Assembly (NCBI GenBank): GCA_025267735.1
Contig: CM046294.1
Span: forward strand, 2,886,001 to 2,950,000
Source of the DNA: Mactra quadrangularis
Taxonomy: Eukaryota; Mollusca; Bivalvia; Venerida; Mactridae
Length of the DNA: 64,000 nucleotides
Direction: 5' to 3'
The notes beneath the pieces were generated by a model that saw nothing but the letters and a program-made list of their open reading frames with translations, did no database searches and had not been told where the DNA came from. Shown piece by piece: positions 9,661-57,104 of this stretch. The translations under genes were made by a program, and so were the position numbers. The stretch's first letter is position 1, and every line of letters begins with the position of its first letter.

Positions 9661-9669
9661 AAACAAAAC
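9661..9669 (+). repeat. 9-bp target site duplication, left (AAACAAAAC)
   Basis: Identical to 14913-14921 and directly abuts the outer base of the inverted repeat on both sides. This defines the 9670-14912 element precisely. Confidence 0.9.
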
Positions 9670-9949
9670 AGGTGCGTGAAGTTAGCTGCCAGTTGCCAGT
9701 TGCCAATTCAATCGGCAACTGGCAACTGGCAGCCAACTTCACACCCAGCTGCCGATTCAATTTTTTTTGTTAGCAAGCACTATGTACAGGCATAGCGACG
9801 AACGTTCCGCGCGGGTGTTTTGAATCGGCAACTGGCAACTGGCAGCCAACTTTACACCCAGCTGCCGATTCAATTTTTTTTGTTAGCAAGCACTATGTAC
9901 AGGCACTGCGACGAACGTTCCGCGCGGGTGTATTGAATCGGCAACTGGC

Positions 9950-12480
9950 AGCCAACTTCACGCCTCAGCTGCCGATTCGATTTTTTTAGATTTCGGCGCA
10001 AATACGTCGCCTTATGCACAAGTACTGCGACGAACGATCAACGCGAGTGTTTTGAATCGGCAACTGGCAACTGGCAGCCAACTTCACGCCTCCGCTGCCA
10101 ATTCGATTTTTTTAGATTTCGGCGCAGATACGTCGCCCTATGCACAGGTTATGCCACGAACGTTCCGCGGGTGTTTTGAATCGGCAACTGGCAACTGGCA
10201 GCCAACTTCACGCCTCAGCTGCTAATTCGATTTTTTTAGATTTCGGCACAGATACGTCGCCCTATGCACATGTACTACGACGAACGTTCCGCGCGGGTGT
10301 TTTGAATCGGCAACTGGCAACTGGCAGCCAACTTCACGCCTCCGCTGCCAATTCGATTTTTTTAGATTTCGGCGCAGATACGTCGCCCTATGCACAGGTT
10401 ATGCCACGAACGTTCCGCGCGGGTGTTTTGAATCGGCAACTGGCAACTGGCAGCCAACTTCACGCTTCAGCTGCTAATTCGATTTTTTTAGATTTCGGCA
10501 CAGATATGTCGCCCTTTGCACATGTACTACGATGAACGTCCTTCTTGTGTGTTTTGAATCGGCAACTGGCAACTGGCAGCCAACTTCACGCCTCAGCTGC
10601 CAATTCGATTTTTTTTTAATTTCGGCGCAGATACGTCGCCATATGCACATGTTCTACGATAAACGTCCTGCTCGGGTGTATTGAATCGGCAACTGGCTAC
10701 TGGCAGCCAACTTCACACTCCAGCTGCCGATTTGATTTTTTTAGATTTCGGCGCAGATACGTCACCCTATGCACATGTACTACGATGAACGTCCTGCTCG
10801 TGTGTTTTGAATCGGCAACTGGCAACTGGCAGCCAACTTCACGCCTCAGCTGCCAATTCGATTTTTTTAGATTTCGGCGCAGATACGTCGCCCTATGCAC
10901 AGGTACTGCGACGAACGTTCCGCGCGGGTGTTTTGAATCGGCAACTGGCAACTGGCAGCCAACTTCACGCCTCAGCTGCCAATTCGATTTTTTAAGATTT
11001 CGGCGCAGATACGTCGCCCTATGCACAGGTTATGCCACGAACGTTCCGCGCGGGTGTTTTGAATCGGCAACTGGCAACTGGCAGCCAACTTCACGCCTCA
11101 GCTGCCAATTCGATTTTTTTAGATTTCGGCGCAGATACGTCGCCCTATGCACATGTTCTACGATGAACGTCCTGCTCGGGTGTTTTGAATCGGCAACTGG
11201 CAACTGGCAGCCAACTTCACGCCTCAGCTGCCAAATCGATTTTTTTAGATTTCGGCGCAGATACGTCACCCTATGCACAGGTACTGCGACGAACGTTCCG
11301 CGCGTGTGTTTTGAATAGGCAACTGGCAACTGGCAGCCAACTTCACGCCTCAGCTGCCAATTTGATTTTTTACATTTCGGCGCAGATACGTCGCCCTATG
11401 CACAGGTAATGCCAAGAACGTTCCGCGCGGGTGTTTTGAATCGGCAACTGGCAACTGGCAGCCAACTTCACGCTTCAGCTGCCAATTCGATTTTTTTAGA
11501 TTTCGGCGCAAATACGTCGCCCTATGCACAGGTACTGCGACGAACGTTCGGCGCGGGTGTTTTGAATCGGTTACTGGCAACTGGCAGTCAACTTAACGCC
11601 TCAGCTGCCAAATCGATTTTTTTAGATTTCGGCGCAGATACGTCACCCTATGCACATGTACTACGATGAACGTCCTGCTCGGGTGTTTTGAATCGGCAAC
11701 TGGCAACTGGCAGCCAACTTCACGCCTCAGCTGCCAATTTGATTTTTTACATTTCGGCGCAGATACGTCGCCCTATGCACAGGTAATGCCACGAACGTTC
11801 CGCGCGGGTGTTTTGAATCGGCAACTGGCAACTGGCAGCCAACTTCACGCCTCAGCTGCCAATTTGATTTTTTACATTTCGGCGCAGATACGTCGCCCTA
11901 TGCACAGGTAATGCCACGAACGTTCCGCGCGGGTGTTTTGAATCGGCAACTGGCAACTGGCAGCCAACTTCACGCCTCAGCTGCCAATTCGATTTTTTTA
12001 GATTTCGGCGCAAATACGTCGCCCTATGCACAGGTAATGCCACGAACGTTCCGCGCGGGTGTTTTGAATCGGCAACTGGCAACTGGCAACTGGCAGTCAA
12101 CTTAACGCCTCAGCTGCCAATTCGATTTTTTTAGATTTCGGCGCAGATACTTCGCCCTATGGACATGTAATACGATGAACGTCCTGCTCGTGTGTTTTGA
12201 ATCGGCAACTGGCAATTGGCAGCCAATTTTACACCCAAGCTGGCAATTCGATTTTTTTTTAGATTTCAGCGCTGATACTTCGCTCTATGCACAGGTACTA
12301 CGATGAACGTCCTGCTCGGGTGTTTTGAATCGGCAACTGGCTATTGGCAGCCAACTTCACACTTCAGCTGCCAATTCATTTTTTTTAGATTTCAGCGCTG
12401 ATACGTCGCCCTACGCACAGGTACTGCGATGAACGTCCTACACGGGTGTTTCGAATCGGCAACTGGCAACTGGCAGCCAA
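9950..12480 (+). repeat. Left subterminal array, 126-bp units, ~20 copies
   Basis: Unit starts (GAATCGGCAACTGG) recur at about 10054, 10178, 10304, 10430, 10556, 10683, 10809, 10935, 11061 and so on, spacing 124-127, mostly 126. Each unit contains CAACTGGCAACTGGCAGCC, AACTTCACGCCTCAGCTGCC, a T-run followed by AGATTTCGGCGCAGATACGT, CGCCCTATGCACAGGTACT and CGACGAACGTTCCGCGCGGG. Higher-order variants alternate: GCGACGAACGTTCCGCGCGG versus ACGATGAACGTCCTGCTCGG. As 126 is 42 codons, several frames stay open for hundreds of bases; these are not treated as genes. Confidence 0.95.
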
Positions 12481-12513
12481 CTTTACACACAGCCTTACTG
12501 AATTGGTATCTGA

Positions 12514-12744
12514 CAAATCCATCGGGAATTGATTGGACGACACCCGCCAATAGTATGCCTGCGAACTTATGATTTATTGGAAAAATTAGGGTTTCCTAAG
12601 GACATCAGGGCATACAAAGGAAATGTTAACATTTTGAATAAACAATATCGATTGCTCGGAGGGACTTTTTACAGAACAGGACATTACACCGGAGCAATGA
12701 AAACAGGCAAACATGGTTGGGTGTTTTATGATGGCTTGAAATAG
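12514..12744 (+). CDS. Short ORF in centre of element 1, possible peptidase-fold remnant
   Basis: An open frame after a TGA at 12511 encodes about 76 residues ending in a TAG. The most structured part is YRLLGGTFYRTGHYTGAMK followed by TGKHGWVFYDGLK-stop. The arrangement 'GHY...(10 residues)...W..YDGL' resembles the catalytic-His region at the C terminus of ubiquitin-peptidase-like (C19/Ulp) folds, which some DNA transposons carry. The match is short and the upstream Cys box is not visible. It sits between the arrays, where a transposon's cargo would be. It could be a terminal exon or a relic. Confidence 0.4.
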   Translation, partial: QIHRELIGRHPPIVCLRTYDLLEKLGFPKDIRAYKGNVNILNKQYRLLGGTFYRTGHYTGAMKTGKHGWVFYDGLK

Positions 12745-13298
12745 AAGCTGACTAAATACAGTGACAACCTGGCAGCAAATTATGTGCCAACTCATTTGAT
12801 GTTTGTCATTTGTGAATAGCATTATGATATGGCATAGCAGATTACAATTCATGATTACCTGGCTGCCATATATATGTCAACTCAATGGATGCTCGCCATA
12901 ATGACAATAGTGTTATTTTAATATGTAGCATTGTTTTGAACTTTGCTTGGCTACAAAGTATAGGTCCATTAATTTGATTCCCCTCATTTGCTAATACATT
13001 GTAATGTTGTTATATGCTGTACTTTGCCTGGCTGCCATTATTCATGTCTCATAAATAGGTTTTGAAACCAGTCAAGGTCCTAGTCACAATGAACATGCAA
13101 TTTGGTTAAGTGCAATATTTCTGGATCTAGCGTCCATGATACAGTGGTATAGACCACAAAAAGTTTGTCCGTCCAATTACCCATTATGGTCTGTGCCTAG
13201 ACTCTGATGTACGTACATAATTGTTTATCTAACTTTCTTGTACTTTTTGCCTTGTGTTTTACCAGTTGCTCAGGTAGAGATCAATTTTTTATTAAAAT
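12745..13298. other. Element 1 centre, left part
   Basis: Unique-looking sequence with loosely repeated 'CTGGCTGCCAT...ATGTCAACTCA' phrases (12770, 12860, 13030), which may be a diverged roughly 80-90-bp tandem. No ORF of note. Confidence 0.4.
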
Positions 13299-13307
13299 GA
13301 TATTAAT

Positions 13308-13451
13308 AGGGTGACGTATCTGCGCCGAAATCTAAAAAATCGAATCGGCAGCTGGAGTGTGAAGTTGGCTGCCAGTTGCCAGTTGCCGATTCAATACACC
13401 CGAGCAGGACGTTTATCGTAGAACATGTGCATAGGGCGACGTATCTGCGCC
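13308..13451 (-). repeat. Isolated 126-bp monomer flanked by 9-bp direct repeat GATATTAAT
   Basis: One array monomer plus about 18 bases of the next (144 bp) in the right-arm orientation. It is bounded by GATATTAAT at 13299-13307 and again at 13452-13460. Both edges carry the same AGGGYGACGTATCTGCGCC sequence in direct orientation, so the piece has no inverted tips. It looks like a monomer inserted with its own 9-bp target duplication. Confidence 0.75.
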
Positions 13452-13460
13452 GATATTAAT

Positions 13461-14150
13461 TTAAAAACCTGTTTTGATTTATGTGTCAGTGCTGCCCTTG
13501 TACAATGAGGAACATGTGCTCCTTCGGCTACTTACGTAAGACTTGCAGTTTAGCTTGTTTCTCTGTATTGAGAGATTATTCGAAAGTGATGAAAATCTTT
13601 CGATCCAAGTATTCCAGACTCTGACCATTAGACCATGAGAATGCCTATATACTGGGTAAAATATCAGAAATAAATCCTGTATGAGTAATTGCCTATCCCT
13701 AAATATTTATATGAAAACCTTTATCGGAGTGCCTGCACATTAGGCGTTGTATCATTCAAGCATTCATCAAGAAACGATGCTTCTTAACGTTCACAATAGC
13801 GTCTGCACATTGGACCTGGTATTAGTACTGTATTCCAGTGAATATGAAGCTATATTCCAATTGTCCAACGGATTGTCCAGAATACCGAGCTCCTATACAA
13901 TAAGAAAGTATTGACGCAGTATTTCAACAGTACAACGTATAGGCAGTCATTTGACTGATGCCAAACAAAATATCTTACAGAGACGATATTTCGTATCGTT
14001 CTGCAGAAGATCTGCACATATCGCTTAGGATCAGCGCTGAAATGTAGCAGAGATCGAATCTGAAGCTAGCTGCCACTCGCCAATTCAAAACACACGTCCG
14101 GGATGCACAACACAGTGCCTGTGCGTGGTATCCGATCAGAATTCTAAACA
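13461..14150. other. Element 1 centre, right part
   Basis: Non-repetitive sequence without a recognisable ORF. Towards 14080-14110 fragments of the array (CCAATTCAAAACACACG, GCACAACACAGTGCCTGTGC) appear, consistent with decayed array units at the inner edge of the right arm. Confidence 0.45.
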
Positions 14151-14154
14151 AATC

Positions 14155-14800
14155 GAATCGGAGTGGGGTATGAATCTGCGCCGAAATCTAAAAAAATCGA
14201 ATTGGCAGCTGAGGCGTGAAGTTGGCTGCCAGTTGCCAGTTGCCGATTCAAAACACACGCGCGGAACGTTCGTCGCAGTACCTGTGCATAGGGCGACGTA
14301 TCTGCGCCGAAATCTAAAAAAAATGAATTGGCAGCTGAGGCGTGAAGTTGGCTGCCAGTTGCCAGTTGCTGATTCAAAACACCCGAGTAGGACGTTCATC
14401 GTAGTACATGTGCATAGGGCGACGTATCTGCGCCGAAATCTAAAAAAATCGAATTGGCAGCTGAGGCGTGAAGTTGGCTGCCAGTTGCCAGTTGCCGATT
14501 CAAAACACTCTCGTTGATCGTTCGTCGCAGTACTTGTGCATAAGGCGACGTATTTGCGCCGAAATTTAAAAAAATCGAATTGGCAGCTGAGGCGTGAAGT
14601 TGGCTGCCAGTTGCCAGTTGCCGATTCAAAACACACGAGCAGGACGTTCGTCGTAGTACATGTGCATAGGGTGACGTATCTGCGCCGAAATCTAAAAAAA
14701 TCGAATCGGCAGCTGGAATGTGAAGTTGGCTGCCAGTTGCCAGTTGCCGATTCAATACACCCGCGCGGAACGTTCGTCGCAGTGCCTGTACATAGTGCTT
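14155..14800 (-). repeat. Right subterminal array, 126-bp units, ~5 copies
   Basis: Reverse complement of the left array, with units at about 126-bp spacing. It ends at the outer GTTAGCAAGCACTATGTACA segment shared with the left terminus. The same two variant classes (CGTTCCGCGCGGG, CGTCCTGCTCGGG) occur. Long ORFs on both strands here are array by-products. Confidence 0.93.
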
Positions 14801-14912
14801 GCTAACAAAAACAATTGAATCGGCAGCTGGGTGTGAAGTTGGCTGCCAGTTGCCAGTTGCCGATTGAATTGGCAACTGGCAACTGGCAACTGGCAGCTAA
14901 CTTCACGCACCT

Positions 14913-14921
14913 AAACAAAAC
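14913..14921 (+). repeat. 9-bp target site duplication, right (AAACAAAAC)
   Basis: Exact match to 9661-9669, immediately outside the right terminal repeat, which ends CTTCACGCACCT. Confidence 0.9.
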
Positions 14922-15234
14922 ATTACCTTTAAACTAAATGACCCTTTATGATATTGTTTATTGTATGTAATGATAGGAACCAAGAATATACTTACCAAAA
15001 TAATCTTTTGTTTAAAATAGCCACTGACAACTGTTCTTTCTAATCGATTCAATCATTGTCAGAATGTACGTTGAACCCAATTTATCGGTGCAGCTTAAAT
15101 GAAACTAGATGTTACCTTTCAGTTTCACATACCTTGCAATGCAAGATGAGTAATTACCGGCAGTGTCATCGTTGTTTATTCTCAATAAAGTGAATTTGTA
15201 TTATAATTGCTGTAAAACAAGTATTTAACAATTA

Positions 15235-15865
15235 AAACTCCATTTCGCCAATGTCTAGTCCATTCCGTCCAAAATTCTCCATTCCGTGCTCAATTTGTTG
15301 ACGAAATGGAGATTGTTTGTCCGCCATCTTGTTGTGACTATACTGTGACGCGGAAAATCGTCTATAATGGTATAAATGTAGTTTTTATTTACTTTTATCT
15401 AATTCAATCGCTAACGAAATGGATTCAAATAAAGATATATTCATTTCGTGGTTCATATTTGCCAAGACTTATGCAGGTATATAGATTTATAAAAAAAATA
15501 CAATTATAATAATCTAGATGTTTGTTATGTAAAACAATTACAATTTGAAATAATGGATTATGACAAAATTTGTGATGGACGCCATGGAGATTCCCTCTAA
15601 TGTATTCATTTATTATAATATTTTTTGACTATACAGAGTTAGGCGGTTCATTATAAAAACTGACGCAACACATCAGTGCGCTTACACAAGTGGGCGGAGT
15701 TACGTTTAGTTAAGCGAATGAAACATAGTATCTACGTCATGTGATAACATGCGAATCAATCCACGCTAATTATAATTGAATGATCATGTTTCATAATAAA
15801 TATGCGAAATGGATATTTATTATTAAAAATTAATTTTAATTAATCAAAATATGATTATTCTTTAT
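15235..15865 (+). repeat. Dispersed repeat, copy 2
   Basis: Same landmarks as 3818-4445: CCATTTCG motifs, a GACAAAATTTGTGATGGACG segment, AGAGTTAGGCGGTTC, AAGTGGGCGGAGTTACG, ATCTACGTCATGTGATAAC. About 600 bp, same orientation. The intervening LINE and element 1 were not part of the shared unit. Confidence 0.6.
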
Positions 15866-15904
15866 TCTTCATGACTAAGGTATTTAATTTGTGGCTTTTT
15901 ATAA

Positions 15905-16275
15905 TCACTCAATTCGCGAAAAGCCACGCATATTCTGCGCATTATCACTGAGATGCGAATGATTCGCGCATAGACTACGCATAATGTGCGTATGAGTCGT
16001 GTCCTTTCAACGCCGTTCCGCGTATATAAACGAATGCGGGCTTTAGGACATTTTCACGCACGGTCGCTGATGTTCCATGCATGAGTCGCAAATAATCCGT
16101 GTAAGAACTACGCAAACTCGAAGATAAATTTTGAACTGATCAAAATTGGAATCGCGCATAGCGCTGAAACCACACAGTTCCACTCACTACTACGAATGCT
16201 CCACGTCGGAAACGCCGATGAAACGCGAATATCACGGATGACTCACTTTTTCCTATGCGACCGGCCCTAAAGTAT
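15905..16275. repeat. CpG-rich MITE-like segment
   Basis: Abrupt rise in CG content with many ACGCA/TGCGA motifs (CGCATATTCTGCGCATTATC, GATTCGCGCATAGACTACGC), ending CCTATGCGACCGGCCCTAAAG. It is similar in style to the CpG-rich element at 45286-45881. Clear inverted ends were not established. Confidence 0.45.
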
Positions 16276-16684
16276 GATCATTTTCGTAAAAAGGTTACGA
16301 GTTCTTAAAATTTGAGATTAATTTCGTCTTTCTTGTCTTGGGAGGAAAAGAAAAAGGGCTCTCCACTTTACATTAAAAGTTGCGAATATTCGAATATCTA
16401 CAGAAATACACTTTCTCTAAACATATTGTCTGCCATATTATTATTTCAAAAGCATAACTTTACATATAATACTTGTTCTAAACTGGAAACGGGGTAAATG
16501 TCCGCCCTTCAAAAATGGGGGGGGGGCAAAATCCTTCCTTTTCGAAAACCACGAATGTCCTTGTTTGCCTCGACATAAATGGGGAAATGGTCGGGTGGGT
16601 ATAAGCAGGTTCTCGTATATTACATGTTTTGAAAAAAAAATATCTTCTTCATTCAGTTTATTTATTAGAAAATCTATTGTAATA

Positions 16685-17374
16685 AGGGCTGCGGATCGTT
16701 GAGCATATAGCGATCCAATCCGAACCACGATCCATGTGATGCGATTCACAAATCGATTCGTAAACCACAAACCACTTTTTAATGAAGAAATATAATAATT
16801 CATGTAATAAAAAAGTTAGTGAAGAACTGCAAGAGTTTTTACAACAAGGAAAATAATGTTCCCCAAACATGGCTTATAACCAGACGTTTTTTTTGTCTTG
16901 TTTTTTTACGTTGCATTCAACACATATTTAGGTCATACATACGACGGCCAGCTCTACTACTATAGGTTTCCTGGACACTTGTTTCTATCGCCAGTAATAA
17001 CTTACCCTACCACGAGGCCGACAACTCATGTATAGGGTATGACCTGCCGCGACCGGAATTCGAACCCGCGATCTTCGCGGATCGAAGTCAGACATGCTAA
17101 CCACTACGCCACAGACGTTTTGTGGCCATTTTCATTGATAACTTTTTTTAATGTGAATAAATCGAATTTTGACACGATGTTGTTCGGTCTCTACAATAAT
17201 TTAAATTTACATTTGAAGCGCGACTTGTTTTCAGTTGTTAATAAGCTGAAAATGTTCTTCAGTTTTTTTTCCAAAAAAAAGATCGCGATCCGACGATTTC
17301 GGACGTGACGAATACTCGATTTTCTGGTCTGGATCGCGAGTATCCAAGAACTCGGATACTCGCCGCAGCCCTAA
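16685..17374. mobile_element. hAT-like MITE with nested SINE
   Basis: Outer ends read AGGGCTGCGGATCG (left) and, as reverse complement of the right end, AGGGCTGCGGCGAGTATCC. Internal sequence is rich in GATCG/GCGATCC phrases. TIRs starting with AGGGCTG are common among hAT-type MITEs. A SINE (about 16895-17125) sits inside. No clean 8-bp duplication was confirmed. Confidence 0.45.
16895..17125 (-). mobile_element. tRNA-derived SINE, diverged family-A copy
   Basis: On the minus strand the head gives a tRNA-like block with CGGGTTCGAATTCCGG as B box and GGCGTAGTGGTTAGCATGTC as A box. Next comes the shared body (GGTAGGGTAAGTTATTACTG) and a tail towards 16895 (AATGTGTTGAATGCAACG). Not a functional tRNA gene: the tRNA fold is incomplete and the body is attached. 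Confidence 0.6.
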
Positions 17375-18259
17375 AAGTGTTACTCAATGAAATGTAAAGT
17401 TTTTATTGAAAAAGAGTGTAAATGGCATTGTTTGCCATTTTCGTTCCGCCCAGACGTTGCCATGATAAGTGGAAACGGACCCAACTTGCTATGTCTGCAA
17501 GAAAATCACATAGGGGATTATTTTAACAAGTTGCGTATCTTATCGTGAAATGCACTCTCACGCTAAGGCGAAAAATGGCTTCACATGCCACAACCAGTTA
17601 ATGTTATTTTCTAAAGTGTAATGTAAGAAATTATGAACAAATCAAAAGGATTACTATTGACGGCCATTTCTATTTTGACTAAACGATTAATGTGAATTTT
17701 ACAAATCAACTGTAACTGTAAGCAAAGGAGTTCTTTATAACTGTCATATTACTTCGTTCACAATATGCTTGCAAACTTGAAAGCTTAATTTTTATTATCG
17801 TCAGATTTCTTTTAATCTAAGTACAGCTGTAGATCTACGTATAAGTTTTTATAAGTACATTAAGCAGTGCATTCTTATCCAGATATGCGATGTTGATTTT
17901 GAATGAAGGGAAATTGAATTCCTTCCCCATTGTAGAATTCTTCCATTAACAAAATTTGGGATATAATTCCACCCAAAGGAATAGGAAGAGCATAACTATA
18001 AAATGTTTTTTGAGGAAACGAGAAAAACTGTGTATAATTTTCAGATGACTATTTTTGCTAAAACCTGACATATTTAAAAAAAATTGTTCCGACAGTAAAC
18101 ATTCCATGAGTTACTTATATATCCAATATTGTGTAAATGTTCAAAATCAGAAAACTAGCAAAAACTTAAAACAACCTTTGAAGACGGATGTTTTAGTTCA
18201 TACAATGTACTTTTTTTATCAAACTCCTCACAGTGATTACGTCACGCTTTGCTACTTTT

Positions 18260-19935
18260 TGATTTATTATCCCCCGCAGATGGAATCGGGAGGGGGTATA
18301 GTTTTGGAATTGTCCGTCCGTCCGTCCGTCCGTCAGTCCGTCCGTCCTCCCGTCCGTCGGTCAGTCCGTCCGTCGGAATTTCGTTTCCGGAGTAGTTCTC
18401 TGCACCTACTGGCTGGAATTCAACGAAACTTTATGGGAATCTTCAACATCAAGAGGAGATGCGCATGTGGTCAGCTTTTTTCGGGTCAGACCCTTTAACT
18501 CAGAGTTATGGCCCTTGATAAGTTATGTTGTATGCATATGGAGTAAAAATCGTTTACGTGCTACTTCTATGCAACTACTGGCTGGAATTCAACGAAACGT
18601 TATTAGAACCTTCGAAAAAACCAAGAGGAGATGCTAATATCGTCAGCTTGTTCCGGTCAGACACTATAACTTAGAGTTATTGCCCTTGATTAGTTACGCA
18701 GTATGCATATAGAGTAAAAATCGTTTCCGCGCTACTTCTCTGCAACTACTGGCTGGAATTCAACGAAACTTTATGGGAATCTTCAATACCAAGAGGAGAT
18801 GCGCATATCGTCAGCTTTTTTTTCGGGTCAGACCCTTTAACTCAGAGTTATGGCCATTGATTTGTTATGTAGTATGCATATATAGTAAAAGTTGTTTCGG
18901 CACTACTTCTCTGCAACTAATGGCTGGAATTCAACGAAACTTTATGGGAACCTTCAATACCAAAAAGAGATGCACATGTTGTCAGCTTGTTCTTATCAGA
19001 CACCTAAACTCAGAGTTATGACCCTTGATAAGTAATGCAGTATGCATATGGAGTAAAATCGTTTCCGCGCTACTTCTCTGCAACTACCGGCTGGAATTTA
19101 ACCAAACTTTATGGGAACCTTCAATATCAAGAGGAGATGCGCATATCGTCAGCTTGTTATGGTCAGACCCTTTAACCCAGAGTTATGGCCCTTGATTAGT
19201 TATGTAGTGTGCATATAGAGTAAAAGTCGTTTCTGCACTACTTCTCTGCAACTTCTGGCTGGAATTCAACGAAACTTTATGGGAACCTTAAAAAAACAAG
19301 AGGAGATGCTCATATCGTCAGCTTGTTCCGGTCAGACACTTTAACTCAGAGTTATGGCCCTTGATTAGTTAAGCAGTATGCATATAGAGTAAAAATCGTT
19401 TCCGCGCTACTTCTCTGCAACTACTGGCAGGAATTCAACCAAACTTTGTGGGAATTTTCAATTCCAAGATTCGTCTGCTTGTTCCGGTCAGACACTTTAA
19501 CTCAGAGTTATGGTCCTTGATTAGTTATGTAGTATGCATGTAGAGGGAAAAAATCTGCGCTATTTCTCTGCAACAATGACTGGAATTCAACGAAACTTTA
19601 TTGGAATCATCAATATCTAGAGGAGACGCGCATATCGTTGCCTTGGTCTGGTCAAACCTTTCAGCTCAGAGTTATTGCCCTTGATTAATTGTGCAGTGTT
19701 CATACAGAGAAATATTGCTATTTCTTTGCAACAGCTGGATTGATTTCAACAAGATTTTATGGAAATCATCAATACAGAAAAGAAATTTTCATCTTATTGG
19801 CATGTCCTGATAAATTTTATTAACATGGAGTTATGTATGTTCCCTATTATGGTTTTATGGTTTTTTGTATTTATCAATAAAGCCTTATGTCTCCAGTTGT
19901 TGTGTTATTAAAAAAAGTACTCGGCGGGGGATATA
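18260..19935 (+). repeat. ~170-bp tandem array element with (GTCC)n head
   Basis: About nine units starting GGCTGGAATTCAACGAAACT at 18411, 18580, 18751, 18922, 19089, 19257, 19426 and about 19575, with later units shorter and decayed. Each carries CAGAGTTATGGCCCTTGAT and AGTATGCATATAGAGTAAAA. The array is preceded by a pure GTCCGTCC tract (18313-18365). It is bounded by TTATCCCCCGCAGATGG on the left and GCGGGGGATATAA on the right, inverted relative to each other. Probably one mobile element with an internal satellite. Confidence 0.8.
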
Positions 19936-22945: not shown

Positions 22946-23360
22946 GTCCGCTGTTAAACATAGGGTTTAACTGTGTTAAACATATAGTTTAAGTAATTAA
23001 TGTGCAAACGGCACTTAAAACCATAGTTTAAAGTCTTAATCTATGGGTTTAACAGAAAACAACGAAACGAAGTCTTAATCTATGGGATTAACAGTTAAAC
23101 CTATAGTTTAAGACCTTAATCTATACGTTTAAGAGATAAAAAGTTTAATCTATAGGATTAAGCGTCTTAAACATAGGGTTTAACTGTTAAACATAGGGTT
23201 TAACTGTTAAACGTATAGTTTAAGGTCTTAATCTACAGTTTCAATTTTGAAAAGTTGAAACTATAGGATTAAGACTCTTAAACCCTATGTTTAAGTCTGT
23301 TAAACTATGGGATTAACAGTTAAACCTATAGTTTAAGTAATAATTGTGCAAACGGCATGC
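22946..23360 (-). repeat. CTATAGTTTAAC-type repeat block, inverted right copy
   Basis: Same alternating motif as 2648-3112 (AAACATAGGGTTTAACTG, CTATAGTTTAAG), read on the opposite strand. It ends outward at GTGCAAACGGCATGCC, the reverse complement of the left block's outer edge. The two blocks lie about 20 kb apart inside one intron. Confidence 0.7.
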
Positions 23361-24312
23361 CATATACATGGATAGAAGTTCTCAGTATGTCAAAAGAAAT
23401 GACTCAATGTCATTTCTGTCTATTTCAGTATTTTGAAAGCAGGTTTTAAGTATTTTCGAATATTCGGTTTTATAAATCTAAAACAGATTCCAAGTATGTC
23501 AGTGCCTCATATTGCGATTTTCGCGAGTTGGTTTTATTTGAATACTACGCTACTTTTGGTTTATATAGAATTTACAGTATCCGACGCTTCAATGAAAGAT
23601 TATGAGTACAATTAAAAATGTCATTTCTTTTAAATCAAGTCTGGTGTTCATATTTACTTTTCTTCACAATAATTAACGTCAATCATCAATTGCGTTCGAA
23701 AACAATAAAGCGCTGACTACGACGGAATTACACGATCAAAGTATTAAAATTACGCTTTAAAATTTGTTCAAATATGAAGAAAGGTACCATCTATACCCCA
23801 AGTACTGACAGTTCATTTAAGAATTTCGAATATTCATATTCGTTTTCCAACATTCGAATATTCAAATATTTTTCCCGGCCCTAATTGTTTTATATTATGC
23901 TAGGCCTAACCAGCGACTAGTAGCGTGTTCAATTACACAAAATGTTACAGAACGTTACATAACAATACATTCGGAACTCCTTGGCCATTCGCTGTGAATA
24001 ACCTAATCTAATACACAAATATGAGATCGTTAAGGCAATGAGTGATGTTTCAAAATTTACGGACTAAAAACGAAACATCACTCATTGCCTAAACGATCAT
24101 ATATTTGTTTACTTTAACACATGTAGTTACAAAATATAGCGTCTAAATATGTCCGAGATTATTCGCAGCGAATGGCCGAGGTGTTCCGAATGTATCGTTA
24201 CGGAACGTTTTGTAACGTTCGCGGTAAATGAACGCAGGGTAGGAGTAGGAGTGCCAACCGCTGCTATATGACTTTTAAAGTGTTGAAATAAAAATAAGTG
24301 TAAAATACGTAC

Positions 24313-25506: not shown

Positions 25507-26019
25507 CTGAAAAATATAGAAATGAATATAATATAATAATTCTATAATAATAATGATATGCACATACATAGCATAATATTATATACATTTACACAAACTA
25601 GAAGATCGTAACCTTATTTGCCTGTGTTTTTGCAATAGACATTTTGATAAATGCCAACACATTATAACACATTTTTAATGTCACAGGAATTTATTGATGG
25701 ACAAGAGACAAAATCAATTAGTAATCTGCAGCGAAGTTCCACTACAAAAACACATAGGTAATTGCAAAATCATGCGATTTTTCATGACTTATAAGTTGTA
25801 AAAAAGATACAATATTATAAGTCGTAGCATTTAGACATTCCAAGGGAGGCGTTCCTGTGCTTATGTTTGTAATACGCTCACCTCACCAGATTTCCCAGGT
25901 ACCATTCTTAACCAGTACTCACAGGCCTATCCGTCCGCAAGGAACTCGTCTATAAGTAATTTTAAGTCACATAAGGTATATACATGTACACCCAGAGACA
26001 TATTTTTGGTACTACCTAC

Positions 26020-26113
26020 CTCAGAACAAAAAATGTATCTACAGCAAATCCGCCCCCTACTACTGTCTCAAACGTAAAACGTTGCATTATGGGTACTGCA
26101 TCTAAAAGATTCT
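26020..26113 (-). CDS. nrf-6-like gene, coding exon 10
   Basis: Residues 491-521, QNLLDAVPIMQRFTFET and VVGGGFAVDTFFVLS, with split codons at both ends. 'VDTFF.LSG' is a strong nrf-6/acyltransferase-3 motif. Acceptor CTTTTCAG, donor TGAG|GTAGGT. The exon is only 94 bases long. Confidence 0.9.
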
Positions 26114-26184
26114 CTGAAAAGGAAAGGATTCTTACACAGCCACACGTGTTAACACTACGTAGGCAATAACAAGAATAATTTAGC

Positions 26185-26425
26185 CCTCACGTCTGGCTAT
26201 GTCTGGCTGTAGCCCACCATTTACTGATAGAGGGGTCGTGGGTTGGATTACCGGCCGGATTATTCTTTCGTAGAGTTTGATCATGAAGTAGTTACTACGA
26301 TCATTCTCCCTCCTACCACATATTCTAAATAATGTAAGACAGTTGTCAGACACTGACAGAAGTATACGCCTAGTAACTGTTAAATAGTTAAATCCAGAGA
26401 TTTAGCCTTCCCATGCAGGAACGGT
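26185..26425 (+). mobile_element. tRNA-derived SINE family B copy
   Basis: Diverged tRNA-like head with GAGGGGTCGTGGGTTGGATT (B-box region), then the shared body CGTAGAGTTTGATCATGAAG, CTCCCTCCTACCA, CAGTTGTCAGACACTGACAG and TTAAATCCAGAGATTTAGCC. Other family B copies are at 28888, 36821, 47700 and 48545. Confidence 0.65.
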
Positions 26426-26604
26426 TAGACCAATCCATTTCAAAGGTAGGACAGTATTGGAATTAAAGGTTGTATAACAATTTTAACAACAAGGAAAGGG
26501 TGGAGGATAAACCACTATTAAATGAGTGAATCATGCTTGTTGTGGTATAAAGCTTAATCATCACACAAACAAGACACTCATAAAACATTTTAAAATTAAT
26601 ACAT

Positions 26605-26785
26605 ATTATCTTACCTCGTACAGAATACTCGTTTTTCATTGGCCGAGAGCGGTCACGTGCTGACCATGTATTATCCCATATTAGGTCAGTAGATTCTAAT
26701 ATCCAGTCAGTAACAAAATTTATAAATGATAGCGCTGACGAAACCTTATTTTTCTACTCAGATGGGGGTACTCGGTAAGATAAAT
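26605..26785. mobile_element. Small inverted-repeat element (TTATCTTACC ends)
   Basis: Left ATTATCTTACCTCGTAC (26605-26621) and right GTACTCGGTAAGATAAA are inverted. The interior contains GGTCAGTAGATTC and CCAGTCAGTAAC, related to the adjacent 120-bp hairpin element. Probably a diverged longer relative of it. Confidence 0.5.
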
Positions 26786-46985: not shown

Positions 46986-46987
46986 GA

Positions 46988-48790: not shown

Positions 48791-48879
48791 AACAAAAACA
48801 AAAAACATGACTGTAGCCCAGTGGTTAGTTTACGCGTTGTCGAATCCGTGGGTCACATGCTCGATATTCTATGAAGACT

Positions 48880-49275: not shown

Positions 49276-49616
49276 CAAAATATACTTTGTCTACGGTATA
49301 CTTGATAGATAAAGATACAGTATGGAGTATTGTTTAACATTCATTGTTTGTTCATTGTTTGTACGAGTTCAGATTCAAATGTTCTTATAAAAAGCGAAGA
49401 AGTTCGCCTGCTATATAGTAAGACTTGTTTAAAACACGTCTATTTAGCTATTCAGCAAAGGACAAAATACATCATTTACTTACACTTTCAGTGCAACCAT
49501 ATTATAAAATTTGCAATAGTTTCATTCGTTAAAACTAGATGCGGAGACCATTTAAACATCTTCTTCATGTTTGTATCAACGTGCCAAATCTAAATTTATA
49601 AAATGATATTATTTAT

Positions 49617-49835
49617 ACTGGGTTTAACGCCATGTCAACACGGTCATTTTACGGCGTCCATAGCAGCGCACCAAACCTAGCTTTCCTGGGCCCTTGTCTA
49701 TAACCAGTACTCACCTACCCTTCCACAAGGCCGTAAACTTCTCCATGTATCTTATTAATGGAGGAAAATTTACATTATTGTCAAATTTTAAGGAAGGGTA
49801 TAACCTCCCCGGATGGGATTAGCAAGTGGATCAAT
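49617..49835 (-). mobile_element. SINE family A, same subfamily as 44100-44325
   Basis: ACGCCATGTCAACACGGTCA, GCGTCCATAGCAGCGCACCA, GGCCGTAAACTTCTCCATGT, ATTGTCAAATTTTAAGGAAG and CCCCGGATGGGATTAGCAAG, followed by the same non-tRNA sequence as the 44.1-kb copy. Confidence 0.7.
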
Positions 49836-50004
49836 CTGCTAACCATTCTCGTACCCAGAAAGTATCAAGATTCTTAACGTATCTCATTTTAGATCGAAGG
49901 CAATGAATTTGTTCGGGTTTGAAAAAACGAAAGTATGTCTAGTGCTGCAACAACGTATGTATACAAAGGACAGTTCAGTGACACTTGTTAATAGGTACAA
50001 AATA

Positions 50005-50013
50005 ATGAGAGCT
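50005..50013 (+). repeat. 9-bp target site duplication, left (ATGAGAGCT)
   Basis: Identical to 57096-57104. Directly abuts the tip AGGTGTGTGAAGTTGG. Confidence 0.9.
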
Positions 50014-50084
50014 AGGTGTGTGAAGTTGGTGTGTAGATTGTACATTGTAATTCAACTCGTAGTTCGCGAATTACTAGCTAGCTA

Positions 50085-50460
50085 GTAGATGGGTATTCAA
50101 CTTGTAGTTCGCGAATTACGAGCTGGCTAGTAGTTGGGTATTCAACTTGTAGTTCGACCCGGACAAAGGTATCGTTTGAATTACTAGCTAGTAAATAGGC
50201 ATTCAAGTTGTAGTTCGACCCGGACTCACCAGCATAGGTATTCTTTGAATTACTAGCTAGTAATTGGGTGTTCAAGTTGTAGTTCGGACAGGACACACCA
50301 GCATATGTATCTTTTGAACTACTAGCTAGTAGTTGGGTATTCAAATTGTAGTTCGGACAGGACACACCAGCATAGGTATTTTTTGAATTACTAGCTAGTA
50401 GATGGGTATTCAACTTGTAGTTCGACTCAGATACACAAGCATAGGTACTATTTGAATTAC
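50085..50460 (-). repeat. Left subterminal array, 69-bp units, ~6 copies
   Basis: Reverse-complement units of the right array (GGGTATTCAACTTGTAGTTC, GGACTCACCAGCATAGGTAT, TTTGAATTACTAGCTAGTA). The minus-strand ORF at 50078-50413 is simply this array read in frame (NYNLNTQLLASNSKNTYAG repeated). Confidence 0.93.
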
Positions 50461-50940
50461 TTCATTGCTGAAATTGTTTTTGCTAATTAATAATTTTGCT
50501 GAAAATTTTTTTTTTGCTAAAATTTTTTGCTGAAATGTTTTTTGCTGATTTTTTTTTGCTGAATTTTTTTTTTGCTGAAATTTGAACACCCAACTACTAG
50601 CTAGTAGTTCAAAACAGTTAAACGTAATATTATTTCGTTAAATCGAAAAAATTATTTAAAAAAACGAAACAATTATTTCGAAAAAAGAACGAAATAATAT
50701 TATTTAAAAAAACCGAAATAATATTATTTCGAAAAAAACAAATAATTATTTCGGAAACGAAATAATAGTTTCAATTTTTCGAACTAATTATTTCGATTTT
50801 CGAAATAATATTATTTCGATTTTTTGAATAATATTTTGAATAAACGAAATAATAGCTCGTTAAAACGAAATAATATTTCGTAAAAACGAAATAATATTAC
50901 ATTGTACGTTTAAACGAAATAGTAATGAAAATAAAAAAGT
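50461..50940. repeat. Low-complexity TTTTTTGCTGAAA tract and ATTATTTCG palindromes
   Basis: 50461-50600: repeated (T)nGCTGAAATT. The inverted counterpart AGCAAAAAAAATTCAGC occurs at 54585-54840, so these tracts are part of the element's long inverted arms. 50640-50935: a run of AACGAAATAATATTATTTCG-type palindromes. Confidence 0.8.
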
Positions 50941-51829
50941 ATTTCAAAATGTCACTTTAGGGGCTCCGTACAGCCTATACGCCACAAGTTGCTACTTAAC
51001 CACCGCCATGAAACAAATCACGTGATATTAATAGTATCATGTGACAGATGATTTTATTAAAATATGATGGTTTGCCTTACAGTATTATTAAACGAGGTTG
51101 AACTTGTCCTCGATGCATCTTTGTTTACACATGTATACTAGATAAGATAAGGTAAGATAAGATAAGATCAGATAAGATAATCTATATTTAGAGTCGGTTA
51201 TAATCAACCACATATAACATTAACTATTGTCCGACAAAACAAGACTATCCAATAAAAATCAAACAAACTGAAAAGGAAATAATTCACTAAAAATACAATC
51301 AATACATTACATTAATCAAGAAACATGCAAGGCTCAGCAAAATTCGTACCACATAATAAGTTTATTATTAAACTATTTTTAATACATGCTAAGATTTGTT
51401 CGTTATGTGAGTTTATTCGATAACCGATACAAAAGTTAATCTAGGGCAAGTTCAATATTGTTTACTAATACCAGGGTCTAGAGTCACGTGATATACAACA
51501 TCTACTAACAAGATAAACAAGCACATGTTTTCCACCCGATTCTCTTCCTAAACGAAAGACATCATATAGTACATAACACAACTACTACATTTCTTTCCAC
51601 AAAATGTCTTAATTGGTCTTGCAAATACTTGTTGTTAGCTCCTAATCACAGAAATTAGATCGAATGGTAAACTGTCATTTTTTTCAAAGATAAATTGTGC
51701 AGAGAATTTCAAGTAAAAAAACTCGAAGACCAATGAAGGCATTATCGTATATAGAAAGTAGTTATTTTATTCACGATATGATTTTTTTTCAAATTGATGA
51801 TTGCTACAAGAACTTGAAAAACAATGATA
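50941..51829. other. Element 2 interior, left
   Basis: No recognisable ORF. A (GATAA)n microsatellite lies at 51142-51180. The rest looks like decayed AT-rich sequence. Confidence 0.45.
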
Positions 51830-52694
51830 TACCCAAAGGAAAAAGAAACGCAGGGTAAAACAATATGAAATAACTTTTAACAGCTTTGTTTTAGGTAATG
51901 AAAATCGGTCAGATTATTATCTGGGCCATTTTGTACACAACACGGTATGAAAAATTACTGAATCATGTTTTTCATATCATTCGATACTCTGGATATTTAC
52001 ACACTATCGTAATTAAAACTCTGTAATTATTTTTTACGGCAATGGCACGGCTTACGGAAGTTCATAGGAGTCAGGCCAATGCGCTGCTAATGCAAGATCA
52101 AACGCTTCAGCAGGTTGCTATGCTGTTTAGCGTGAATATTTTGGCCACAGAGTGACTTGTATGTCGTCTTAGAGAAAGGCTTCCTAACCGAGCTCCAACG
52201 TTACGTCAGCGCGCGTAATGACACGACGCCAGGAAGGGCTATACATCTTGTCAACCTGCGTAATCGGTCAAAACTGCCAATGAAACTGAACATTTAGCAA
52301 ACCAACTTGACAGAAAGGTAAGGCAGCGAACTTCCCGACCACGTTTGACCAACTGAGAAATGCCTTGTTGGAAAAGTGGAACAAAAGCCCCATGAGAAAG
52401 ATAAAGACCTTCACGAGTTCAATTCACTTGAGAATGCGGCATGTGATAGCTGTGCGAGGAAGACATACCCGGTACTGAGAACTATACTTCCATTTGAATT
52501 TAAGATTGTATTGGATATCGCCAAACTCGTTCCAATAACTCAAGAAGTAAATGTCAAAATCTGGTGAAAATTTCATGAAACAAATTCATGAAAGTCAGTT
52601 CTTGATAGATTAAGAAATAAATTTTAATATCATTTATATGGATAACCATAAATATCCGCTAAAGTTTACCCTGCGTTTCTTTTTCCTTTTGGTA
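51830..52694 (+). mobile_element. Tc1-like transposon, degenerate, nested in element 2
   Basis: 865 bp with inverted ends TACCCAAAGGAAAAAGAAAC / (reverse complement of right) TACCAAAAGGAAAAAGAAAC, both continuing GCAGGGTAAA, and a TA dinucleotide outside each end (51828-51829, 52695-52696), as for Tc1/mariner. From 52042 the sequence reads MARLTEVHRSQANALLMQ followed by TLQQVAMLFSVN, the N-terminal helix-turn-helix of Tc1 transposases. It then breaks into frameshifted pieces (HLVNLRNRSK, VRQRTSRPRLTN). The catalytic DDE part is missing, so it is inactive. Confidence 0.85.
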
Positions 52695-53092
52695 TATCTT
52701 TCGCGAGACTATACTAAGTAAACATAGAGTATGTTAGGCGTAATGTAGCGTAAAGTCCCAACCTTGCGCTCTCTAATATGATTTGTTTATGAAATTAACA
52801 AACCAACCATTGAATAAATATTTTAAAGATATATGGTACATTGTATTGAAATGTATCGTTAATTTATAATGCATCCAAACTGTTAAATTTATAAACAATT
52901 TTATTAAATAGCAGAGACAGCGCCTTATTATAGCGATTAGTAAAAAATATTCATAATAACAATAGTATGTCTATATAAAGACTTCAAAATGCAATGCCAA
53001 TTTAATAATCTTTTTGCGCGACGTTTTGCTTTTCGCGCGGTTTTTACACACTTAAGGCAGTTTGTGTAAAAGTCAGCACTGAAAATTAATAT

Positions 53093-53176
53093 TATAGCTC
53101 GTTTAGGATAACTTTAGACAAATTTAAACTATATTTATGTAAAATTAATGTCTCAAGTTATCCTAAACGAGCTATA
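53093..53176. mobile_element. 84-bp hairpin MITE, TA-flanked type
   Basis: Arms of 22 bp: TATAGCTCGTTTAGGATAAC and TT, inverted as AAGTTATCCTAAACGAGCTA and TA; only about 40 bp between. The outer TA at both ends is compatible with a Tc1/mariner-type target. Confidence 0.75.
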
Positions 53177-53270
53177 CGTGTACAGTATGACCTCTTCAGA
53201 GCTGTCATTTACAAAACAAATCCTCTGCACAACAACAACTTTTGATGTTTATTCTTCTTTTTGTTCACGG

Positions 53271-53581
53271 CTACACAGTCAGACTAGTCTTAGGGATGAA
53301 TTGTAAGGTCCGTCTGAGTTCAACTACAGTATCATACAGTTGCTCCTGTAAAATTGTCTCAGTCGGCCATATTGCTATTCTCTCCTGGTGGTGTCTCACA
53401 GATTTGAAGGATGTGCTCCGTTGGTTTGGTCATCCTCACCGTATGGGCATGTAGCTGTTGGTGCCAGCTTCAGCTTTGTATACATATGTGCATTTAGCTG
53501 GTTGTGTCCATTCTTAAGTCTCATCATTACTACTTGTTCTGGCCTGCTGAGGTGATATTCATCCTTTTCTAGGTCTGTGAA
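53271..53581 (-). pseudogene. Fossil C-terminal tail of a LINE ORF2
   Basis: On the minus strand, reading from 53581: DLEKDEYHLSRPEQVVMMRL, KNGHNQLNAHMYTKLKLAP, TATCPYGEDDQT. After frame shifts come EHILQICET, HQERIAIWPTETILQEQLYD and TVVELRRTLQFIPKTSLTV-stop (TAG at 53271-53273). 'R.GHN.LN.H', a C..G box, 'T.EH.L..C' and 'WP...L' are the usual end of reverse transcriptase proteins of a LINE group common in molluscs. It differs from the LINE at 4460-7024. Two frameshifts and loss of the rest mark it as dead. It lies inside element 2. Confidence 0.75.
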
Positions 53582-53599
53582 GCTAGCTATCTATTGTCT

Positions 53600-54180
53600 A
53601 TTCTCTATTCAAAAGTTTATTGCACTAATGATAGCCATGTATTGAGAAATCTATTCATTCAAAAGTCTATTTGCATTTACTGTATACATAGATATAGGTA
53701 AGTTCAAATATCTGTACCACTATCTATTCACAAAATGCCGAAAAGACAGCTGCCTATTCGGTAGTCTATTCAGAAGTCTATTCGAAAAAAGGTCGGTAAT
53801 GCAATAAAACAGATTTAAAAGTCTTTTCGTGGAATACGTAAAGAGACAAATGTCCATTCAAAAGTCTATTCAGAAGTTTATTCGTAAAAACATAGTTATG
53901 CAATCTGAATTTGCAAGATGTCTATTCCCGGAATGCGAAGCCACAAATGTCCATTCAAAAGTCTATTCAGAAGTTTATTCGTAAAAACATAGTTATGCAA
54001 TCTGAATTTGCAAGATGTCTATTCCCGGAATGCGAAGCCACAAATGTCCATTCAAAAGTCTATTCTGATCTCTATTCAGAAGTCTTTTCGCAAAAATATA
54101 GCTATGCATTCAGATTGTTCCTGAGGTTAATTCGTGGGTCGTGAATAGACAGCTGTATATTCAAATGTCTATTTTGAATG
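53600..54180 (+). repeat. GTCTATTC-based minisatellite, incl. 97-bp direct repeat
   Basis: A TCYATTCAGAAGTCTATTCG-type core recurs throughout. Two identical roughly 97-bp units start AAATGTCCATTCAAAAGTC at 53848 and 53945, with a third partial at 54042. The ORF at 53911-54144 results from this repeat. Confidence 0.8.
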
Positions 54181-54580
54181 ATTTTGCTACCATTGATTCC
54201 AACATTCTTCAATGATTTTTGATATTACTCACGAACAAGTTATTCTCAGTTTTTATATTCTATCAGCATGTATGATGTACGCATCATGATATATGGTGTG
54301 TCATGACTGCATGTTATATCTCACCAGACTACAGAAACAATATAACACCATTGTAAAAACTTATGACGCAACATTGGCTTTATACCTAACAGATTACAAG
54401 TGGTGAATAATTCAGGTAGTAGTAGCTTCTCAGTACTGGTGCAATGTCTGTATATTTTGAGTTGATCGCCTGGATATATGATGCTTGTATAGCAACGGAT
54501 ACACATGTTTAACTTATTCTGATGTTACTTGTCCAACTCCTGAACTTATACGAAACACTTGGTGGATTTGGGCTACTAAA
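54181..54580. other. Element 2 interior, right
   Basis: No repeat or domain recognised. A minus-strand ORF at 54321-54506 has no visible family signature. Confidence 0.4.
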
Positions 54581-54837
54581 ATTTTGCTGAAAAATTTATA
54601 ATTTTTTTTGCTGATTTTTTTGCTGATTTTATTTCTGAAAATAAAGAAAAAAATTTCGGCAAAAAAAATTAAGCAAAAAATATTTTAGAAAAAAAAATCA
54701 GCAAAATAAATTACCAAAAAATTTTTTAGCAAAAAAAACATGTTTAGCAAAAAAAAATTCAGCAAAAAATTTTCAGCAAAAAAAAATTCAGCAAACAAAA
54801 ATTCTTACAAAAAAGATTTTTTTCAGCAAAAAAATAA

Positions 54838-57050
54838 TTCAAATAATACCTATGCTTGTGTACCTGAGTCGAACTACAACTTGAATACTCAATTACTAGC
54901 TAGTAGTTCAAACAATACCTATGCTGGTGAGTCCGGGTCGAACTACAACTTGAATACCCAACTACATGTGTACTAGCTAGTAGTTTAAAAATGCATATGC
55001 TGGTGTGTCCTGGCCATACTCTAAGTTGAATACTCAATTACTAGCTAGTAGTTCAAACAATTTCTATGCTAAAGTACCAGGGCCGAACTACAACTTGAAT
55101 ACACAATTACTAGCTAGTAATTCAAACGATACCTATGCTGGTGAGTCCGGGTCGAACTACAACTTGAATACTCAATTACTAGCTAGTAGTTCAAACAATT
55201 CCTATGCTAGACTACCAGGGCCAAACTACAACTTGAATACCCAATTACTAGCTAGTATATCAAAATGTTATGTGTAGTAATGTGTTTGGGTCGAACTACA
55301 AGTTGAATACCCAACTACTAGCTAGTAGTTCAAACAATTCCTATACTAGAGTACCTGGGCCGAACTACAATTTGAATACCCAACTACTAGCTAGTAATTC
55401 AAAAGATACATTTGCTGGTGTATCTGTGTCGAACTACAAGTTGAACACCCATCTACTAGCTAGTAGTTCAAAAAATGCATATGCTGTTGTGTCCGGGCCG
55501 AACTACAAGTTGTATACACAATTACTAGCTTGTAATTCAAGTACAACGTATGTTGATGTATTTTATGTGAACTACAAGTTGAATACCAAACTACTAGCTG
55601 GTAGTTCAAATAATACATTTGCTGGTGTGTCCGGTCGAACTACAAGTTGAACGCCCAACTACTAGCTAGTAATTCAAACGATACCTATGCTGGTGTGTAC
55701 GGATCGAACTATACTTGAATACCCAACTACTAGCTAGTAATTCAAACGATACCTATGCTGGTGAATACGGGTCGAACTACAACTTGAATACCCAACTACT
55801 AGCTAGTAATTTAAAAAAATACCTGTGCTGGTGAGTCCGGGTCGAACTGCAACTTAAATACCAAACTACTAGCTAGTAACTCAAACAAATACCTATGCTC
55901 GTGTGTCCGGGCCGAACAACAACTTGAATACCCAACTACTAGCTAGTAATTCAAACGATACCTATGCTGGTGAGTCCGGGTCGAACTGCAACTTGATTAC
56001 CCAACTACTAGCTAGTAGTTCGAAAAATACATATGCTGGTATGTCCGGGCTGAACTACAAGTTGTATACCCAATTACTAGCTAGTTATTCAAGTATAACC
56101 TATGTTGATGTATTTTATGTGAACTACAAATTGAATACCCAACTACTAGCTAGTAGTTCAAATAATACATTTGCTGGTGTGTCCGGGTTGAACTACAAGT
56201 TGAACGCCCAACTACTAGCTAGTAGTTCAAAAGATACATATGCTGGAGTGTACGGGTCGAACTACAACTTGAATACCCATCTACTAGCTAGTAATTTAAA
56301 AAAAAACATACCTATGCTGTTAAGTCCTGGCCGAACTACAACTTGAATACCCAACTACAACTTGGTAATTCAAAAAATACCTGTGCTGGTGAGCCCGAGT
56401 CGAACTACAACTTGAATACCCAAATACGAGCTAGTAATTCAAAAAATACCTATGCTGGTGTGTCCGGGCCGAACAACAACTTGAATACCTAATTACTAGC
56501 TAGTAATTCAAATGTTATGTATAGTAATGTGTCTGGGTCGAACTACAAGTTGAATGCCCAACTACTAGCTAGTAGTTCAATTAATTCCTGTGCTAGAGTA
56601 CCTGGGCCGAACAACAATTTGAATACCCAATTACTAGCTAGTAATTCAAATGTTATGTATAGTAATGTGTCTGGGTCGAACTACAAGTTAAATACCCATC
56701 TACTAACTAGTAATTCAAAAAATACTTATGCTGGTGTGTCCTGGCCGAACAACAACTTGAATACCCAACTACTAGCTAGTAATTCAAACGATACCTATGC
56801 TGGTGTGTCCGGGTCGAACTACAAGTTGAATACCCAACTACTAGCTAGTAATTCAAACAATACGTATGCTGGTGTGTCCGGGTCGAACTTCAACTTGAAT
56901 ACCCATCTACTAGCTAGTAATTCAAAAGATACCTATGCTGGTGAGTCCGGGTCGAACTACAAGTTGAATACCCAACTACTAGCCAGTTCGTAATTCGCGA
57001 ACTACAAGTTGAATACCCATCTACTAGCTAGCTAGTAATTCGCGAACTAC
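54838..57050 (+). repeat. Right subterminal array, 69-bp units, ~32 copies
   Basis: Units of 69 bp contain AATTCAAACGATACCTATGC, TGGTGAGTCCGGGTCGAACT, ACAACTTGAATACCCAACTA and CTAGCTAGT. Read in frame they give a 23-residue repeat (NYNLNTQLLASNSNDTYAG + ESGS), with ORFs of 78-158 codons interrupted by indels. Variant units (TGTTGATGTATTTTATGTG, ATGTATAGTAATGTGTCTGG) recur at spaced intervals, indicating higher-order duplication of multi-unit blocks. I treat it as satellite DNA, not as an expressed protein. Confidence 0.93.
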
Positions 57051-57095
57051 GAGTGGAATTACAATATACAATCTACACGCCAACTTCACATACCT

Positions 57096-57104
57096 ATGAG
57101 AGCT
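57096..57104 (+). repeat. 9-bp target site duplication, right (ATGAGAGCT)
   Basis: Exact match to 50005-50013, immediately outside the right tip CCAACTTCACATACCT. Confidence 0.9.

Follow-up and report, generated by a model that had tools for sequence, protein, structure and literature searches.

Probable Foldback-type DNA transposon families of the bivalve Mactra quadrangularis share a 16-bp tip and carry different tandem arrays

The FB elements of Drosophila are flanked by 9-bp target duplications. Inverted arms of tandem units bordered by such duplications are the Foldback layout as the accessible parts of two papers outline it (PMC3169594, PMC4079207), the second of which places most foldbacks in Mutator. 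The available portion of PMC6446971 lists Rehavkus hosts among arthropods and annelids only and describes two mollusc MULE groups, MULE-Cg with terminal repeats of 48 and 296 bp and MULE-Mollusca with none, no arrays of the kind reported here being mentioned in that portion. In the accessible text of PMC8268682 two oyster satellites, CgiSat23 and CgiSat28, carry the annotation DNA/MuDR, which hints in print at a link between MuDR-type elements and satellites in bivalves; on foldbacks, the excerpts of that paper and of PMC12628747 cite Tetris only. We analysed a 64,000-nt stretch of the Mactra quadrangularis genome (the window; contig CM046294.1, positions 2,886,001 to 2,950,000 of an assembly of 979 Mb in 447 contigs) that contains two elements, e1 at 9670-14912 and e2 at 50014-57095. 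The two are very probably related cut-and-paste DNA transposons of the Foldback (NOF-FB-like) type that inserted here, and we call their families A and B. Together with a third family, C, at least three families share one 16-bp tip but carry different tandem arrays.

Exact copies of the tip AGGTGYGTGAAGTTRG stand in the window at 9670 (+), 14897-14912 (-) and 50014 (+), and the outermost end of the elements can be written AGGT...GTGAAGTT. Each element is bracketed by a 9-bp target duplication that is identical on both flanks, AAACAAAAC for e1 and ATGAGAGCT for e2. An earlier inspection of the letters without database searches (the sequence-only reading) had claimed a shared tip with exact duplications, and this was borne out except that e2 ends on the right (57080-57095, -) in AGGTATGTGAAGTTGG, which differs from AGGTGYGTGAAGTTRG at a single position. 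The long arrays that it had seen, inverted between the arms and made of 126-bp units in e1 and of 69-bp units in e2, are present in both elements. Its further statement that everything inside the tips differs holds in so far as blastn detects no similarity between e1 and e2 (E 1e-3), but e2 carries a piece of the third tip-sharing family, a remnant that matches the left end of a C element at ~81% and for which no C right tip was found in the window.

Throughout the genome AGGTGYGTGAAGTTRG occurs exactly 313 times (166+147) and AGGTVYGTGAAGTTRG 1269 times (634+635), compared with 0+0 and 1+0 for the reversed controls, and AGGTNYGTGAAGTTRG is common to families A, B and C. A hand count of 100 listed places among the 313 exact tips assigned 81 to the form AGGTGCGTGAAGTTAG (family A) and 19 to AGGTGTGTGAAGTTGG (family B). 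Sixty-eight of the 81 listed A tips make up 34 convergent pairs spaced 2.5-32 kb; the other 13 are unpaired within the list, one of them being an extra inner tip and another the last place listed. An exact 9-bp duplication borders 30 of the 34 listed A pairs, a further pair has one with a single mismatch, and three have none; the exact cases comprise e1, 11 of 15 elements fetched whole and all 18 pairs examined by their ends. When a copy on contig C19, examined later, is included, the same 9-bp length as in Foldback is found exactly duplicated in 31/35 A pairs, beside 4/5 B pairs and 14/19 C pairs examined. The 30 A target duplications are all distinct and 70% A+T, and inspection by eye revealed no clear target motif among them. 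The genome search for the tip in inverted pairs with 9-bp direct repeats, which the sequence-only reading had advised, was thus successful, and its proviso that the two matches would be coincidental if most tips were unpaired and lacked duplications does not apply to the tips listed.

Two single A tips (L001 and L002) have a nearly identical outside flank (AAATCCAGAGATTTA...), which suggests insertion into, or duplication together with, another repeat. A further tip form, AGGTCCGTGAAGTTAG, was seen at C1:5329325, 12164069, 16068307 and 32865488 and at C2:11718574, unpaired among the first 100 listed occurrences of AGGTVYGTGAAGTTRG, and may represent an end of a fourth family.

Full-length copies of family A carry the transposase gene. 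One of them is 31,909 bp long (C4:12239853-12271761) and is flanked by the exact duplication ATTGATTTC. Its arms measure 6.7 and 5.4 kb, and its 19.8-kb core includes an open frame 1339 codons long (C4:12256240-12260256). A second, of 30,785 bp (C19:2715598-2746382, exact duplication GGATTGGAA), also has a 1339-codon frame, so that the copy encoding a transposase that had been proposed as a target of the search exists twice with its main frame uninterrupted. Because the C19 and C4 copies show 3 differences per 5367 bp around this frame, we infer that transposition was recent; the distance to the right tip is equal in the two copies, and the 1124-bp difference in length therefore falls left of the frame. 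In a third copy, on C14, the frame is interrupted. Inspected by eye, the 1339-codon frame has no early methionine, a likely splice acceptor at its start and a likely donor at its end, and a downstream exon (C4:12262696-12263217) encodes the C-terminal part of the transposase; this predicted exon structure draws on the sequence and on the related protein P0005. The N-terminal part of the frame (L070/L071, C4:12256240 onward) is a coding tandem repeat of ~50-60 residues, and P0005 also has an N-terminal repeat, unrelated to it in look.

A protein search with the transposase (limit E 10) yielded 18 relatives, the weakest of them at 1.9e-7; a profile search also gave 18, of which 16 were new. The names of P0017, P0023 and P0031 in their sources ('in NOF-FB transposable element') indicate a NOF-like enzyme, as in full Foldback copies, while P0005 and P0011 are proteins of Argopecten irradians. 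Several relatives possess PHD, Ulp1 or UCH domains, the PHD fingers being those of P0009, P0016, P0033 and P0034. P0003 and P0029 are catalogued under bacterial metagenome-assembled genomes (Sedimenticola, Thiodiazotropha), a filing that we infer to reflect host contamination; viral and bacterial/archaeal contig collections gave no confirmed relatives, which says little about animals. One NOF-type relative in the genome, at C13:22598003-22600006, lies in a 1987-codon open frame and matches P0004 at 26%.

A C-x2-H motif between the second D and the E is characteristic of the MULE DDE domain. In an alignment of 26 rows, numbered after a 789-amino-acid part of the A transposase, D255 and D327 are found in 25/25 rows with a residue and E560 in 20/20, with C374 (24/24) and H377 (23/24) in the place expected of that motif. 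The sequence-only reading had proposed a Mutator-like transposase, and the triad with its C-x2-H is indeed Mutator-related, but the relatives point to the NOF-FB type and the MULE transposase domain PF10551 has no match at E<=10 in a 788-amino-acid part or in the C-terminal exon.

Judged by its sequence, e1 is an internal-deletion derivative of a full A element that resembled the C4 copy without being identical to it, because its core is made of three pieces joined by deletions that match 23058-23610, 25658-25914 and 25906-26611 of the 31.9-kb copy at ~95%. A 162-bp piece of array lies inside this core at 13306-13467. The exon remnant of e1 is 91% identical in amino acids to the C4 copy and also matches the Argopecten proteins P0011 (4.5e-8) and P0005 (2.9e-6); PDB and phage sequences gave no matches to it. 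Since e1 is without a long open frame of its own, it must have moved in trans or before the deletions occurred. The transposase acting in trans of the sequence-only reading therefore agrees with e1, which keeps only the C-terminal exon, but one enzyme for both A and B is not supported, B having its own gene. Fifteen A elements besides e1 were fetched whole. Two of them (C1:44307280 and C2:13048322) consist of arrays only, and each of the remaining 13 has a core of which a part or almost the whole aligns with the full element, at ~94-99% in the listed stretches.

Inverted terminal arms of tandem units, the other mark of Foldback elements, reach up to about 7 kb here. The left arm of e1 (9670-12483) contains the tip core GTGAAGTTRG once in forward orientation, as the tip itself, and 18 times in reverse, and the right arm has 6 forward copies besides the tip, where shuffled sequences average 0.016 and 0.004. 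About one copy of the tip core, facing outward, is thus present per 126-bp unit of A, and the ~75 bp at the very end of A fold into a strong hairpin. In the arms of e2 the core is confined to the tips. The 69-bp unit of B shares much of its length with a 45-bp subterminal unit, and no similarity between A and B arrays was detected in the elements masked. In the accessible parts of PMC3573991 and PMC4079207 the tandem units of foldback arms are proposed to be extra transposase-binding sites, a role that the A arrays would fit and the B arrays, as far as the tip core can tell, would not. Homogenisation of the arms within an element was also considered and abandoned, the means being 93.4% within elements and 92.7% between them (first 500 bp of 16 A elements), which is no evidence for it.

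The four B pairs with exact duplications are e2, C6:20018855 (2740 bp), C15:23212222 (7437 bp) and C1:8506080. No matching duplication was found at the fifth (C1:27237906 with 27246251), which has an alternative second left tip at 27238900, and a sixth element (C4:26349111) has a right array that ends early, with no right tip detected; the five pairs counted involve a minority of the 19 listed B tips. Neither a transposase remnant (at E 1e-3) nor a stretch matching the A full element was detected in the core of e2. The C15 element, in contrast, combines its exact duplication and its B array with a transposase gene in decay, pieces of which are 27-39% identical to the A protein; most of these pieces are closer to the metagenomic P0004. 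Because of this divergence, A and B represent separate lineages of one transposase family with the tip in common. A look for C-family DNA or extra tips near distant transposase copies (L080-L093) gave only the C15 B tip and one 45-bp match in L080.

A C element, 9574 bp long with the tip AGGTCTGTGAAGTTAG and inverted arrays of ~98-bp units, is nested in a 19.5-kb A pair (C2:22542381-22561933) and flanked by the exact duplication TATCTGTTA. The corresponding empty site is present in the A copy at C2:13929076, where the core is the same and TATCTGTTA stands once, without interruption. Eighteen further C pairs were examined by their ends, those with a choice of partners being excluded, and gave 13 exact 9-bp duplications, three exact 8-bp ones (in the printed flanks) and two with neither; wrongly matched C pairings agree in 1/306. 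No transposase similarity was found in the one C element analysed.

If e1 and e2 are Foldback-type insertions, the short shared tip would be the cleavage end; the long inverted arms consist of family-specific tandem units, and full copies have the gene of a NOF-type DDE transposase at their centre. The A transposase would move deletion derivatives such as e1 in trans, the arrays may expand and contract through unequal exchange or slippage, and the A units, which multiply the tip core, may act as extra transposase-binding sites. Several points weigh against this interpretation. An 8-9-bp duplication is absent at three A, one B and two C pairs and mismatched at one A pair, and parts of some A cores, for example much of the 4835-bp core of C1:27109172, have no C4 match. 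As for the enzyme, no first exon bearing the start codon was found, no Pfam family, MULE or other, matches the transposase part (best E 0.1, unrelated; limit 10), and its NOF type is read from the names of relatives, not from a comparison with the D. melanogaster NOF protein.

We put forward only tentatively, as rather doubtful, the wider idea of a tip-defined guild, in which a shared recognition need would keep the tip constant across at least three families while the kilobase arrays are replaced wholesale, one or few NOF-type transposases act in trans on families with unrelated bodies and the unit serves as a transposase trap or enhancer. It is also rather doubtful that a single A transposase mobilises A, B and C in trans via the shared tip, with the arrays as passengers. 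Such an enzyme would account for the presence of AGGTNYGTGAAGTTRG in all three families, for a full-length uninterrupted frame with known tips in the two A copies only (18 and 23 matches in two protein searches) and for the C element devoid of transposase similarity. It is at odds with the diverged gene of the B element, and 8-bp duplications in 3/18 C pairs against 0/35 A pairs give a weak hint of another enzyme (Fisher, exact 9-bp vs 8-bp, p 0.04); a further point against it is the C13 relative in its 1987-codon frame, whose flanks lay outside the tip comparison. That the tip is shared by convergence or chance between otherwise unrelated families is very unlikely: the dissimilarity of e1 and e2 outside the tip and of the A and B arrays would agree with it, but near-identical 16-bp termini accompany 8-9-bp duplications in three families, and the homology of the A and B transposase genes largely refutes it. 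Capture of a host gene piece by a Pack-MULE-like carrier, which the coding-looking exon in the e1 core might suggest, is scarcely credible and was rejected for e1, the exon being the transposase gene's own, with matches to the exon downstream of the transposase frame and to the C-terminus of P0005. Helitrons and Helentrons make no target duplication and encode a Rep/helicase. Satellite arrays on Helentron/Pearl-type elements, as in oysters, come to mind from the mobile elements with tandem arrays reported in bivalves (accessible parts of PMC8268682 and PMC12628747), but this explanation has a negligible probability and is refuted by the exact 9-bp duplications, alongside inverted tips and a DDE transposase.

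Table 1. Features of e1 and e2 in the window
Feature	Position	Strand	Basis
e1 left target-site duplication AAACAAAAC	9661..9669	.	flank comparison
e1 left arm: tip 9670-9685, terminal ~75-bp hairpin, ~21 copies of 126-bp unit	9670..12493	+	
e1 C-terminal exon remnant of transposase gene	12490..12816	+	protein similarity
e1 core	12494..14173	+	pieces matching 31.9-kb C4 copy
e1 right arm: ~5.6 inverted 126-bp units, tip 14897-14912	14174..14912	-	
e1 right target-site duplication AAACAAAAC	14913..14921	.	flank comparison
e2 left target-site duplication ATGAGAGCT	50005..50013	.	flank comparison
e2 left arm: tip 50014-50029, 45-bp units, next 69-bp units	50014..50461	+	
e2 core	50462..54834	.	no transposase remnant at E 1e-3, no match to A full element
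Family-C remnant in e2, tip AGGTCTGTGAAGCTAG at 53571-53586	53571..54173	+	
e2 right arm: ~31 copies of 69-bp unit, tip 57080-57095 (AGGTATGTGAAGTTGG)	54835..57095	-	
e2 right target-site duplication ATGAGAGCT	57096..57104	.	flank comparison

Elsewhere in the window, a non-LTR-type reverse transcriptase frame occupies 4446-6083 (RVT_1 E 6.4e-37), and the same reading frame is open once more at 6084-6518. AT-rich arrays of similar look lie at 2684-3110 and 23017-23337, around GGTTTAACTGTTAA / TTAAACTATAGG, and 18312-19709 holds a GTCC microsatellite and then ~eight 171-bp units.

Foldbacks may have no known enzyme, and none was found for Tetris according to the accessible part of PMC4079207. 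Here, full copies with an uninterrupted main transposase frame stand in one assembly beside deletion derivatives and beside sister families whose arrays differ, and the role of the arrays, their replacement and the width of the tip requirement therefore become directly testable; the elements also spread satellite-like arrays across the genome. The sequence-only reading knew of no mollusc family with this layout, and none came to light in the literature searched, to which subscription journals and Repbase did not belong. The layout itself is that of the known Foldback/NOF elements, but these large, partly recent families of a known kind look new.

Among described systems, Galileo of the P superfamily resembles them, in the accessible text of PMC3573991, in its foldback look, its several subfamilies and its chimeric copies without matching duplications, but has 7-bp duplications and a P-type transposase; the 7-8-bp duplications and P-type enzyme of that superfamily contrast with the mostly 9-bp duplications (8 bp in three C pairs) and NOF-type relatives found here. 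Tetris/DAIBAM of Drosophila virilis, as far as the same kind of excerpt goes (PMC4079207), is likewise a foldback with ~220-bp tandem units, 8-10-bp duplications and a short derivative sharing its ends, but with no transposase copy known and arms to 1.7 kb. Tm1 of root-knot nematodes, in the portion of PMC3169594 at hand, likewise has tandem units within composite inverted repeats, duplications that are mostly of 9 bp and transposase-bearing beside empty versions, and differs in its ~14-bp units, its size of ~1-2.6 kb and its tips. With Rehavkus (Repbase; accessible part of PMC6446971) the elements have in common the 9-bp duplication, the minisatellite adjoining the terminal repeat and, in some relatives of the transposase, PHD fingers; here, however, minisatellites are present at both ends and no PHD finger was detected in the two A transposase exons (the 788-amino-acid part and the C-terminal exon), although further exons could hold one. 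Foldback/FB-NOF of Drosophila, whose D. melanogaster sequences were not compared, shares the long inverted terminal repeats of tandem units and the name NOF-FB borne by relatives of the transposase, and what distinguishes the Mactra families from it is their host, their units of 126, 69 and 98 bp, arms of up to ~7 kb and full copies of 31-32 kb.

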